Virus record (IMG/VR): IMGVR_UViG_3300025266_000005
Coordinates: 1 to 64,000 of that record
DNA length: 64,000 nt
Source of the DNA: a virus
Strand: one strand, 5' to 3'
Part shown: one piece after another, positions 24,710 through 47,757 of the stretch
How positions within the stretch are numbered: position 1 is the first letter of the stretch
How the letters are laid out: every line of letters begins with the position of its first letter
Made by a program: the position numbers and the translations under genes
The notes under the pieces: model-generated
Database searches by the model: none
Seen by the model: only the letters and a program-made list of their open reading frames with translations
What the model was told of the DNA's origin: nothing

Positions 24710-25006
24710 TCAAAGTCTGTCGTCTATCTCGTGTGGGTATGGATGGTTGTTTGCGTTGTTACGGGCTATTTCTGCCTCAATGCGTCTTTGCTCAAGTCTT
24801 AGTGTTTTGCTTTTGAAATACCAGGTCATCAGTGACTGCGTTAAGAAACCAGCTGCAGCAAAGAAGATACCGGCCAGGATAGCCACAACCGTCCACTCTT
24901 CCGGACTGAGCCAGCCTAAGAACAGTAACCCGGCACTTGCACCGTAGTTTGTCTTTGCTCCTACAGTGGCGGCTGTTTCAGCCAAGTGATGGGTAATGCC
25001 TGTCAT
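24710..25006 (-). CDS. Holin, HP1/P2-type small membrane protein
   Basis: A 98-residue protein with two hydrophobic segments, about residues 22-32 and 37-62 (TVVAILAGIFFAAAGFLTQS), and a charged C-terminal tail, matching class II holins encoded at the start of late operons. It is the first gene after the structured leader and terminator at 25041-25330. Endolysin and spanins are at the other end of the operon. Confidence 0.75.
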   Translation of the reverse strand: MTGITHHLAETAATVGAKTNYGASAGLLFLGWLSPEEWTVVAILAGIFFAAAGFLTQSLMTWYFKSKTLRLEQRRIEAEIARNNANNHPYPHEIDDRL

Positions 25007-25040: not shown

Positions 25041-25070
25041 AAAAAACCCCAACACATTTCTGTATTGGGG
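25041..25070 (-). terminator. Strong terminator ending the late leader RNA
   Basis: On the minus strand CCCCAA-containing hairpin (47-52 pairs with 65-70, with an inner ACA/TGT) is followed by six T. It lies just upstream of the holin gene, where lambda-like phages have tR'. Confidence 0.85.
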
Positions 25071-25330
25071 TTTAGGCTTTGCAATGTGATGACCGGTCGT
25101 TACTCCGGTTCTGTAGGAATTTCACCTACTCTTGCGTGTATCGGTGATGGTTTATCTACCTATCAATCCATTGTGAGTGCCGTAACTTTCGGATTGAACG
25201 CCCATGCTTCGCCTAACTCACCTTCGGCTGCTGCACTACAGCTTCACCACATTACAGTACCAACTGTCTCACCAAAGAAACGACTGGAGTTATCCTGTCT
25301 TCTCAATTGGTACTGTGATGCAATCTTTCT
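25041..25330 (-). ncRNA. Structured late-operon leader RNA (candidate)
   Basis: This non-coding stretch between the early operon and the holin has several strong helices on the minus strand. A 14-bp stem with one mismatch joins 25250-25263 and 25307-25320. GTAGG/CCTAC (25113-25129) and ACCGG/CCGGT (25092-25109) form hairpins. A long-range helix joins 25083-25091 with 25245-25253 and would compete with the first stem. The RNA ends in the terminator at 25041. I infer a lambda-6S-like leader or an antitermination target; no RNA family is recognised. Confidence 0.5.
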
Positions 25331-25420
25331 TAGTCACTTTTCCTAAGTATGGCTTATTAGAACATGTTTGTTTTCAGCTGTAGTGCCTTTTTGTGTGTTA
25401 TTTTTGGTGATTTCTTGTGG

Positions 25421-26032
25421 TTAATTAAGTAAATAGTAAACCCGATGACGTAAGGTGCTTAATTTACGGTAATACTCATTTCGATTTATGTCGTGGTCTT
25501 GCTCTACGTGTGCCAGCCATAGTTCATTTTTTGGCTTTATAGGTGCAAACACCTCTCCATCACCTAGCACCAACTTGCCAGGTTTATGGCCTATTGGCTT
25601 AGCTGATTTAAACCCTCCATCTCGAATGTTTTTTATCCATCTTTCTCGCTCAATATAATAAAGCACTGTATTTTTCATGAGCTTTGGTTTTTGTTGTGGA
25701 TTCCTGCCGCGCTCAGGCTTCAACCAATGGCCTTTACGCGTTACCTCTCCTCTCCACCAGTTACGCTCTATGTAGTGCAATTTACCAACCTTATGCATCA
25801 TCTCATCATCTTCTGATAGCGACAACATATAGCCCATCATAAGCTCTTCTTCTGGGCTTATTGGCTCCTGATATCCACTATAACCAATGACCATCTTTTG
25901 CTCAGCGCTTATATGGTTATATCCTAAATCGTCACCGTCATGCAGTACGTTTCTAGCCCACTCTTCTAGCGCTCTGTCTGCTACCGCCGTAATTGTTCGC
26001 TCGGAGATCCGATTTGTAGTTTTCGATGGCAT
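25421..26032 (-). CDS. Last early gene; candidate Q-type late regulator by position
   Basis: A 203-residue soluble protein of no recognised family. It begins MPSKTTNRISERTITAVAD after AAAGGATATTGA, and is basic and Trp/Tyr-rich (IERNWWRGEVTRKGHWLKPE and IERERWIKNIRDGG). It is the last gene of the leftward early operon, directly before the late leader and terminator, the slot of lambda Q. A late antiterminator or activator role is inferred only from that. Confidence 0.55.
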   Translation of the reverse strand: MPSKTTNRISERTITAVADRALEEWARNVLHDGDDLGYNHISAEQKMVIGYSGYQEPISPEEELMMGYMLSLSEDDEMMHKVGKLHYIERNWWRGEVTRKGHWLKPERGRNPQQKPKLMKNTVLYYIERERWIKNIRDGGFKSAKPIGHKPGKLVLGDGEVFAPIKPKNELWLAHVEQDHDINRNEYYRKLSTLRHRVYYLLN

Positions 26033-26264
26033 ATTCAATATCCTTTAGCAGTAACAGGTAAGGCGGTAACGTTTTAGATGTAACTCGCTTTATGTGCAAT
26101 TCTTTGATGTGGGATGATTCTGGCGTATCTCGCACAACTCGAATGCCTTCACCCTGGAAGTAAAGCTGATGAGCGCCATGCCTCTTAACCTTAATCTCTA
26201 GGGCTTGATAGTCTCGCGGCGTAAACAGATCCATTACTTTTATATCAATCAATACCTCAGCCAT
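25953..26264 (-). CDS. Hypothetical early protein
   Basis: A 103-residue protein not recognised by sequence (starts MAEVLIDIKVMDLFTPRDYQ). It overlaps the following gene by 80 bases and the preceding one by 8, in a tight early operon. The content is mixed alpha/beta with many Arg/Lys. Confidence 0.55.
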   Translation of the reverse strand: MAEVLIDIKVMDLFTPRDYQALEIKVKRHGAHQLYFQGEGIRVVRDTPESSHIKELHIKRVTSKTLPPYLLLLKDIEYAIENYKSDLRANNYGGSRQSARRVG

Positions 26265-42835: not shown

Positions 42836-43039
42836 ATGCCCTTAATGAAAGTATCAGTCTACAGGAAGAAACGCTTTGCGGAAGGCTCACGGCCATCTGT
42901 GAACACTATTAAGAAATGGATTGATAACGGCGAAATTCAAGGTGAAATTATCGGTGGAATGTACTATGTTGATCTGGATAAGATTAAGCCAGCAAATCAC
43001 TTGGTTTCAAAGGTGCTGAGAAATGACGCCACGGCCTAG
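42836..43039 (+). CDS. xis: Excisionase (Xis-like)
   Basis: A 67-residue protein; YRKKRFAEGSRPSVNTIKKWIDNGEIQGEIIGG is the winged-helix of phage excisionases. It overlaps the int start by 17 bases, as in lambda. With Int it would excise the prophage. Confidence 0.8.
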   Translation: MPLMKVSVYRKKRFAEGSRPSVNTIKKWIDNGEIQGEIIGGMYYVDLDKIKPANHLVSKVLRNDATA

Positions 43040-44168
43040 AAAGCGCGGGAATAAAGACTTAGCCGGACTGAACCTGTATGTTCAGAAACGTGGTGAGCGT
43101 AACTATTACCAGTATAAGCACCCTATCACTGGCAAGTATCACGGTTTTGGTTTTGACCGAAAAGAAGCCATTGAAGCGGCGAAGCAATTACAGCAGTTAT
43201 TGAAACAAAACCCTGGTTTAGTTGGCAAAGTCGTTCAGCCTGCCGGTTCATTCTCAGAATACCTTGAATATTTCCGCGACGAAATCATTCCCCAAAAACG
43301 GGTAAACGGTCAGCCATTATCAGATAGTACCGTACGGGAATATTCACGCTTGATTAAAACCTTTATTGCCGAATTAGGCCATCATGGTTTTGAAACCATA
43401 CGCCAGTCGCATATAGCAGAATACTTAAACACGCGCTCAACAGCAGAGGTTTACAACAAACACAGAACCTTGCTGGTGATGATTTTCCGGCAAGCGGTTT
43501 CAGATGAAAAATACCCTGATAACATTGCTGAGAAAATAGTAAAGCGCGACATGGATAAAACCAAACGTCAGCCGCTTACGCTTGAGCAATACGAATTGAT
43601 ATACAACCATGCAAGCTTTGCCATAAAGAACGCTATGGAGCTATCCCTGAACGCTCTGCAACGCCGTAGTGATATCCAGAAGTGGCGATTTGATAGTAAA
43701 GAAGGTGATTTTTACCGAGTCGTGATTCAGAAAACCCGCAAGCATGGCAATAACTCAAATATTGAAATACCTGCATCATTGCCAGTGGCCTACTCTGCTG
43801 CAGGCGCTAAAACGCTTGATGATATTGTGCGTAATTGCCGTGATGAATACGCCTGCCCTTACCTGGTCCACGAACCACGGCAACGGCGTAAAGAGTCAAA
43901 AGAAAAAACACACTCGATGCAGTTATCGGTTAAACAAATTAGTGATGGATTTGCCGAAGCCAGAGAAGCGGCCGGCATTAAAATGGAAAACCCGCCAACG
44001 TTTCATGAGCTACTGGCATTAGGTGAATCGTTACGGGAAAAACAAGGATGGACAACGAAGCAGCTCCAGTTATTGCGTGGTCATCGTAAAGAGAAAACCA
44101 CGCAAGATTATCTGGATCGGCATATTGAATGGGTTAGGATTGAAATGCCGGAGATTTTAAGCAAATGA
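43023..44168 (+). CDS. int: Lambda-type tyrosine integrase with a mutated HxxR box
   Basis: A 381-residue protein. The N-terminal arm-binding domain resembles lambda Int (PRPRKRGNKDLAGLNLYVQK). The core-binding domain is at ~75-175. The catalytic domain has Arg214 (LQRRSD), a Lys at 237 or 240, His354 (RGH) and Tyr363 (TTQDYLDRH). Box II reads FHELLALG, so the second conserved Arg (HELR in relatives) is Leu331, codon CTG at 44013-44015. The enzyme is full length and otherwise intact; activity is expected to be poor or absent. Confidence 0.85.
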   Translation: MTPRPRKRGNKDLAGLNLYVQKRGERNYYQYKHPITGKYHGFGFDRKEAIEAAKQLQQLLKQNPGLVGKVVQPAGSFSEYLEYFRDEIIPQKRVNGQPLSDSTVREYSRLIKTFIAELGHHGFETIRQSHIAEYLNTRSTAEVYNKHRTLLVMIFRQAVSDEKYPDNIAEKIVKRDMDKTKRQPLTLEQYELIYNHASFAIKNAMELSLNALQRRSDIQKWRFDSKEGDFYRVVIQKTRKHGNNSNIEIPASLPVAYSAAGAKTLDDIVRNCRDEYACPYLVHEPRQRRKESKEKTHSMQLSVKQISDGFAEAREAAGIKMENPPTFHELLALGESLREKQGWTTKQLQLLRGHRKEKTTQDYLDRHIEWVRIEMPEILSK

Positions 44169-45093: not shown

Positions 45094-45127
45094 TACAGTA
45101 GTATATTATTTCTATATTATTCTTTAT

Positions 45128-45240
45128 TATTTTTAGTGAAAGACGAAAAGTAAAACACTGCCAACTTACTGAATTATATAGGGTAAATTGGTAGGCACGA
45201 ATGGATTCGAACCATCGACCCCCACCATGTCAAGGTGGTA
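45128..45240. repeat. Direct repeat / att copy 2 between the prophages
   Basis: This is identical to bases 1-113 and marks the junction of prophages A and B. Left of it is the int side of A, right of it the FkbM side of B. Confidence 0.9.
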
Positions 45241-46268: not shown

Positions 46269-46781
46269 GTGAAAGCTATCCTATTCTTATCTTTTTTATT
46301 TTTCTCATCGGCCAGTCATTCTGCTTTTATTGCTATATGGGGTGACTCAACCCCATTTGGAGACAGTATTGGCGGATGTTTTGATGAAACTTGTTATGGT
46401 GAGTCATCTCCAGGTTACTTTACCGAAAATGGCGAAATTTTCTTACATAATGAAACTGTTTTTGTTCAGCTATACACAAAATATTTTGGCCCGAGTCAAT
46501 CAGCTTTGTTTTCATGGTCTGTAATAGGCCCGAATCCTTCAAAGGCCATATCCATTTCTTCAGGCCTAGATTCTTATTCCACAACCGCCCTGAGTGGGTC
46601 GACCTGGTTAAACCTAATCAATAACCAAGAATATTATTTCAGTGTCTTGGCGTTTGCATCTGGAATAGATACAGAGGTCTCATGGAGCGTAACCCCATCA
46701 GCCGTCCCCTTGCCTGCAAGTATTTTTTTTCTTGCTTCCTCATTATTAGGGCTAATAGGTATTCGAAGAAAGCTACTTTAA
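46269..46781 (+). CDS. Secreted VPLPA-CTERM (exosortase-sorted) cargo protein
   Basis: A 170-residue protein: signal peptide (LFLSFLFFSSASHSA), beta-type middle with a Cys pair, and the C-terminal tripartite tail VPLPA (146-150), hydrophobic helix, IRRK. This is the PEP/VPLPA-CTERM sorting signal processed by exosortases in organisms that make exopolysaccharide. The GTG start at 46269 has GGAGGGAG upstream. No counterpart exists at the same place in prophage A. The 3' end overlaps the Rz-like gene by 9 bases. Confidence 0.85.
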   Translation: MKAILFLSFLFFSSASHSAFIAIWGDSTPFGDSIGGCFDETCYGESSPGYFTENGEIFLHNETVFVQLYTKYFGPSQSALFSWSVIGPNPSKAISISSGLDSYSTTALSGSTWLNLINNQEYYFSVLAFASGIDTEVSWSVTPSAVPLPASIFFLASSLLGLIGIRRKLL

Positions 46782-47246
46782 CCTGACTTGACACGCGAGC
46801 AGTTGCTTGGTTATTCGCTCAATTCCGTCTCTGAGGGAATAATAATCCTGTCGAGCATCTGCATTAAGTTCGGGGGCGATTCCATTATCCACGCTGGCAC
46901 TGGATCCGGTTTCGGGCATGTTGTCGCTACTGGCTGGACAGCTTGCGTTGACGCGCAACCGCTTACGGCCAGCATCAACATCAGCACGAAGCTGGTTGTT
47001 TTGCTTCTCTGCATCACGCAGTAAAGTATATTGTTCAGCCTCAACAACTGCCCATTTAGCCTGTTTAGTATCGAGTTCATCTTGCAATTCCCATTGTTTA
47101 TTGGCTGCAGTCACAGTAATTGCTTTCAGTGTTTCTGCTGTTCTGGCGTTTAACTCAGCAATCTGCTCACCCATCCGCCAGCCTTGTATTTGCCAGCCTG
47201 CAACGAACGTCAGGCACGCAACGGTGATAAGAATGTATTTATTCAT
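46773..47246 (-). CDS. rz: Rz-like inner-membrane spanin, prophage B
   Basis: A 157-residue protein with the same architecture as 1052-1525: N-terminal membrane segment, then a charged coiled coil. Most differences are conservative. The ATG at 47246 overlaps the endolysin stop by 8 bases. Confidence 0.85.
   Translation of the reverse strand: MNKYILITVACLTFVAGWQIQGWRMGEQIAELNARTAETLKAITVTAANKQWELQDELDTKQAKWAVVEAEQYTLLRDAEKQNNQLRADVDAGRKRLRVNASCPASSDNMPETGSSASVDNGIAPELNADARQDYYSLRDGIERITKQLLACQVRLK
46811..47014 (-). CDS. rz1: Rz1-like spanin lipoprotein, prophage B
   Basis: A 67-residue embedded lipoprotein with lipobox AVSGC and Pro-rich CPKPDPVPAW. The lipobox and last 20 residues are nearly identical to prophage A. 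Confidence 0.82.
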   Translation of the reverse strand: MQRSKTTSFVLMLMLAVSGCASTQAVQPVATTCPKPDPVPAWIMESPPNLMQMLDRIIIPSETELSE

Positions 47247-47757
47247 AAAGACCCGCTAAACAAAGGTTGTCACGCTCAGCTTGCCTGCGGTTATAAAGCC
47301 CCTGAATGAACCTTCCACTCGCATAAGACCAGTTTGGTTTACCGCTGAATGTATTTGCGAGTAACTTGCAGCCTTTCAAATAATCACCACGGTTAATGTG
47401 ACGCACTGATTGACTCTTACATGCCTTGGGCGCGCCTACGTTCCAAGCTAATGAAGAAACAGCGTCAAACACGCCTTGTGGTGGCTCATGCGTTAAACAG
47501 CTCAGCAGCTCCAGCTGAACTTTAGTTAACGCAACACTCATCACCCGATCACATTTTTCTTTTGGCCAGTATTCACCAACAATAACCGGCTCATCTGTCA
47601 CGTACTTAGTGATACCGTGACACGCTGTAGGCAGTCCGCCTGCAAACTTATCGGCGTAAACGGTCATACCTTCACTACCGCCCTCCCATAACGCCAGAAA
47701 CACCATTAAAGGGATGGATGCCAGCGATAAACCACCAACCTTTGCCAATCTATTCAT
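47239..47757 (-). CDS. Endolysin, GH24 lysozyme-like, prophage B
   Basis: A 172-residue close homologue of 1518-2036 with the same hydrophobic N terminus, Glu25, Asp36 and Thr44. The C-terminal third varies most. Confidence 0.86.
   Translation of the reverse strand: MNRLAKVGGLSLASIPLMVFLALWEGGSEGMTVYADKFAGGLPTACHGITKYVTDEPVIVGEYWPKEKCDRVMSVALTKVQLELLSCLTHEPPQGVFDAVSSLAWNVGAPKACKSQSVRHINRGDYLKGCKLLANTFSGKPNWSYASGRFIQGLYNRRQAERDNLCLAGLYE

Follow-up and report, generated by a model that had tools for sequence, protein, structure and literature searches.

A conserved three-way-junction RNA in the predicted late leader of a temperate phage, probably of Methylophaga

The prophage and its late region

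The window analysed here, a stretch of 64,000 nucleotides, is contained in a 67.7-kb virus record and carries two identical 25-bp tRNA-Val(GAC) 3' ends on the minus strand (62-86 and 45189-45213), 45 kb apart, the second of which is part of a longer match to Methylophaga tRNA-Val(GAC) genes. These repeats look like the attL and attR of a prophage. A related prophage in another genome (G001) is flanked by the same tRNA-Val(GAC) match twice, 43 kb apart, and the duplicated tRNA-Val end in both settings indicates that the window most likely holds an integrated temperate phage. Moreover, a Methylophaga sp. MAG carries the same holin as the window, which points to Methylophaga, by way of these relatives, as the probable host. 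By eye, a phage-integrase-like ORF is seen at 43023-44168, and spanin-like and lysozyme-like ORFs at 46773-47757 on the minus strand, outside the presumed att repeat, where they perhaps belong to another prophage or to an end that was rearranged. The sole Rfam match in the window, HPnc0260 (67 bits; 45100-45227, plus strand), is probably explained by its overlap with the antisense of the tRNA-Val end.

On the minus strand, a Q-like gene, a leader, a terminator and a holin gene follow each other in this order, with the gene for the terminase large subunit further on. The features of this region are as follows:

25421 to 26038, minus strand: probable gene for a Q-like late antiterminator, 205 aa (position, N-terminal motif)
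25356 to 25364, minus strand: predicted extended -10 promoter TGTTCTAAT (7/8 consensus positions), with a start expected near 25349
25329 to 25347, minus strand: small 5' hairpin, CTTAG..CTAAG (leader fold)
25248 to 25321, minus strand: module A, a conserved three-way-junction RNA of ~75 nt (z -4.75, conservation, compensatory pairs)
25083 to 25253, minus strand: middle domain, variable, with helix P1 (25253-25244 / 25092-25083) as its closing stem and without similarity between types
25044 to 25073, minus strand: intrinsic terminator, a 13-bp stem and then a T run
24710 to 25006, minus strand: holin gene, first of the late operon (phrog_20, E 1.4e-13, and phrog_4237)

Starting from the holin gene, the gene that follows it and the Q-like gene, we collected relatives, which provide four other leader types, namely L001 (= L007), L009 (with the same leader as L002 and L003), L023 and L004. 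When aligned across these types, the leader resolves into parts with different histories.

A preceding sequence-only reading had taken the interval 25041-25330 for a strongly structured leader RNA without a gene on its strand, in the place of the lambda pR'/6S RNA and ending at a terminator before the holin gene. These claims hold up well. The minus strand has no ORF of at least 50 aa between 25421 and 25006, and a 93-aa plus-strand ORF lying across the element, not seen in L003, was set aside. The 290 nt from 25330 to 25041 fold with -94.9 kcal/mol, as against -70.2 +/- 4.8 for shuffled sequences (z -5.2), none of the 200 shuffles being as stable. The terminator at 25073-25044 is directly followed by the holin gene, and the position behind a probable Q-like gene fits that of pR'. 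The upstream limit had to be moved: a conserved block with the likely promoter occupies 25376-25329, which places the true start further upstream and gives a predicted leader of ~309 nt, from near 25349 to near 25044.

The extended -10 element is retained in L009 and L023, and thus in three phage types with the window, all of which share TG-N-T(C/T)TAAT-AAGCCATACTT upstream of module A; at the place of the small 5' hairpin, L009 and L023 have CGGTTAAGTAACCG. L001 and L004 have in common TGGTATAGT (or TTGGTATAGT) instead, together with another hairpin. A simple -35/-10 scan of the leader region returned no promoter.

Ahead of every leader type stands a gene whose product has the motif W-A...S-E in its N-terminal part; the longer form WA..GY..S.EQ is common to the gene of the window and the same-place genes of L004, L023, L009 and a further Methylophaga prophage, G010. 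Pfam and PHROG searches with the protein of the window gave no match, and its best fold match, to Q21, is non-significant and was obtained with a poor predicted model (pLDDT 58). The G010 version matches PF06530 (Phage_antitermQ) weakly, below the cut-off (E 7e-4). Taken together, position, motif, the weak PF06530 match and the non-significant Q21 match lead us to regard these as probable Q proteins.

Module A as a probably selected RNA fold

Most of the excess stability of the leader lies in its first stem (z -4.75), that is, in module A. The sequence-only reading had described a 14-bp stem with one mismatch, of which the mismatch, a C.A, is indeed single, but the stem is longer, with 16-20 pairs. 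It carries two hairpins, GAC.GGA/UCC.GUC and GUUUC/GAGAC, and this three-way junction form recurs in all copies, with z-scores of -4.75, -3.9 and -5.3 in three types. Module A of the window is 94.7-96% identical to those of L001, L009 and L023, as compared with 67-92% for nearby homologous genes; against L023 in particular, module A stands at 96%, nearby homologous genes reach 67-76% identity and the holin gene is a different one. Among the phages with a near-constant module A, the Q-like proteins are only ~30% identical or show no clear similarity, and in L001 the upstream ORF is a different one, with module A starting inside its end. One phage lineage has thus exchanged its antiterminator gene, its holin and the RNA next to module A while retaining module A itself, a pattern in which the high identity may partly reflect recent exchange. 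The window holds no second copy. L004 lacks the module A sequence and has at 2786-2847, just before the shared terminator, a three-way junction of its own with a 13-14-bp stem of unrelated sequence, which argues that the shape matters.

The four close copies show no covariation among themselves because they are too alike. A covariance model built from them was used to search 63 genomes and matched the G010 prophage (33 bits; E 8e-5, calculated for a single genome). The G010 copy retains the C.A mismatch, the AU neighbours of this mismatch, the junction UGA and the UGGCGAG loop, and most of its closing stem differs. The sequence-only reading had made its case depend on covariation in homologues, and in the first stem this is found: with the G010 copy included, seven stem pairs have two-sided compensatory changes, a count that was reached in 0 of 500 shuffles. 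It depends on a single diverged homologue, and the model itself served to align this copy. Conservation and compensatory changes together suggest that module A is a fold probably under selection within the leader.

The G010 copy, whose sequence is the same as that of the IMG/VR entry L038, lies between genes of a leftward early operon and has no obvious terminator after it, which argues that the function of module A is not tied to late leaders. Right behind the copy, at 8114-8195 of L038, is a tRNA-like stretch with a 7-bp acceptor-like stem and a GTTCGAATCC T-arm, called by neither ARAGORN nor Rfam. A search of 369 Gammaproteobacteria genomes with model and pattern under strict filters, in which the model scored few candidates per genome, returned only the known prophage, and pattern matches in L030, L032 and L037 fall within coding sequence and were taken as chance.

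We also considered that the inverted repeat matters as DNA, be it by forming a cruciform, by binding a protein or by marking the boundary at which phages recombine to swap the middle part. Sense and antisense fold with about equal energy in most copies, so that strand preference is not decisive, and recombination boundaries do lie inside or beside module A. However, module A is on the sense strand of its operon in every copy, its hairpin loops and junction letters are conserved asymmetrically, and no homology was found in other integrative contexts. With this evidence on its two sides, a role as DNA appears very doubtful to us.

The middle domain and the competing pairings

The ~150 nt between module A and the terminator have no visible similarity between phage types. 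Folded alone, the middle domains of three types reach z-scores of -1.4, -2.5 and -0.1. Hence, the earlier picture of several strong helices applies to the first stem and not to the middle domain of the window, which at z -1.4 is unremarkable, even if the two hairpins reported near 25092-25129 are present (25129-25113 and 25109-25092). One of the leader hairpins reads GGTGAAATTCC, and it was this that had suggested a likeness to cobalamin riboswitches. The remaining parts of such a riboswitch are lacking, the hairpin lies in the non-conserved middle domain and is not kept in relatives, and the cobalamin model matches neither at gathering score nor at E<=5 on 471 bases; the resemblance is chance. 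As the same reading had surmised, no known family fits: the leader has no Rfam 15 match at gathering score, sub-threshold matches to SdsR are explained as terminator, ARAGORN finds no tRNA or tmRNA in the leaders, and no DNA similarity was found in phages, plasmids or E. coli genomes.

A long-range pairing that competes with part of the first stem is likewise real as a predicted helix (25253-25244 / 25092-25083): the foot of module A (AATGTGGTGA) has two possible partners, one upstream and the other, TCATCACATT, where the middle domain ends. Among the anchors, the P1 spot gives the best helix in 4/5 loci (combined p 0.0015; window p 0.008), which suggests that an arrangement of two stacked domains may be genuine. 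When the growing leader of the window is folded, the upstream pairing comes first and P1 dominates once ~270 nt have been made. From these alternatives a conformational switch could be argued, as it was from sequence at the outset, and the choice of partner for the foot would then control late transcription. Yet the window favours the downstream partner, L023 mostly and L003 and G010 wholly the upstream one, and the terminator pairs with neither state, on which grounds we do not accept a conserved switch; with no Rfam aptamer match to add, such control seems highly improbable.

What the leader may do

Our preferred reading, to which we give a probability of roughly 0.55, is that of a late leader of the pR'-tR' type, belonging to an integrated temperate phage whose host is probably Methylophaga, with module A as a selected fold. 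As at lambda pR'-tR' (6S RNA), the leader is untranslated, ends in a terminator and lies between a Q gene, here a probable one, and the lysis genes, and as in Q-controlled late leaders an intrinsic terminator precedes the lysis genes; unlike the lambda region, the phage leader has a conserved three-way junction and a swappable structured middle. We infer the promoter and the Q control from sequence: to judge by gene order and motifs, RNA polymerase would start near 25349 and, without the Q-like protein, stop at the terminator near 25044, and after induction the Q-like protein would allow read-through into the holin and terminase genes. Module A, as a stable, early-folding junction, could protect the leader RNA or offer a processing site, leaving a short stable RNA in lysogens, and the middle domain would be a replaceable spacer or cargo. 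This structural job for module A, protection or processing, we propose tentatively, as a possibility somewhat short of an even chance.

A late leader of this kind can itself be a working sRNA: StxS originates in the pR'-tR' region of Stx phages (PMC7873438). The predicted leader described here has the same position and is terminator-ended, and a constant head with a variable middle would suit an RNA acting in trans whose targets change, module A being the body and the middle domain the targeting part. The copy in G010, with no obvious terminator behind it, speaks against this, and we hold a StxS-like role to be rather unlikely.

Alternatively, module A may act in cis on polymerase during elongation, in a put-like or anti-Rho manner, and sustain transcription through untranslated stretches. 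The put RNA of phage HK022 exerts its effect on polymerase via the beta' zinc-binding domain. It is a ~70-nt RNA of two tandem stem-loops (PMC9378689). Module A resembles it as a phage operon RNA of ~70-75 nt in untranslated sequence, with conserved loop and junction letters; it occurs both in the late leader and in the untranslated gap of an early operon, and is independent of the type of Q-like gene. It differs in its build, since put consists of two tandem stem-loops near early promoters and module A, in all copies, of one long stem and two small hairpins joined as a three-way junction. Moreover, Q control would have no purpose if an antiterminator that works on its own lay immediately ahead of the leader terminator. 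An action of this kind is accordingly unlikely in our view.

Within the preferred reading of a pR'-tR' type leader, module A looks like a new small RNA element, absent from Rfam, at a site of a familiar kind. With it, the late-leader region of temperate phages gains a fold that is probably selected, and there is a testable case of a Q-independent role for RNA from late leaders, for which StxS is a precedent in the literature. A broader view, in our estimate quite unlikely, would see in module A the invariant head of phage RNA cassettes that form a new class, carry interchangeable structured RNA as cargo and act on polymerase or host factors; if so, the cargo would include the tRNA-like one in the early operon.

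The terminator is the same or nearly so in L001, L009 and L004, and L023 has another stem sequence with the stem kept. Terminators like that of the phage, just behind a tRNA-like 3' end, are also seen in a Methylophaga genome (L015 1501-1533 and L019 1501-1533), a likeness that we take as a shared terminator style.
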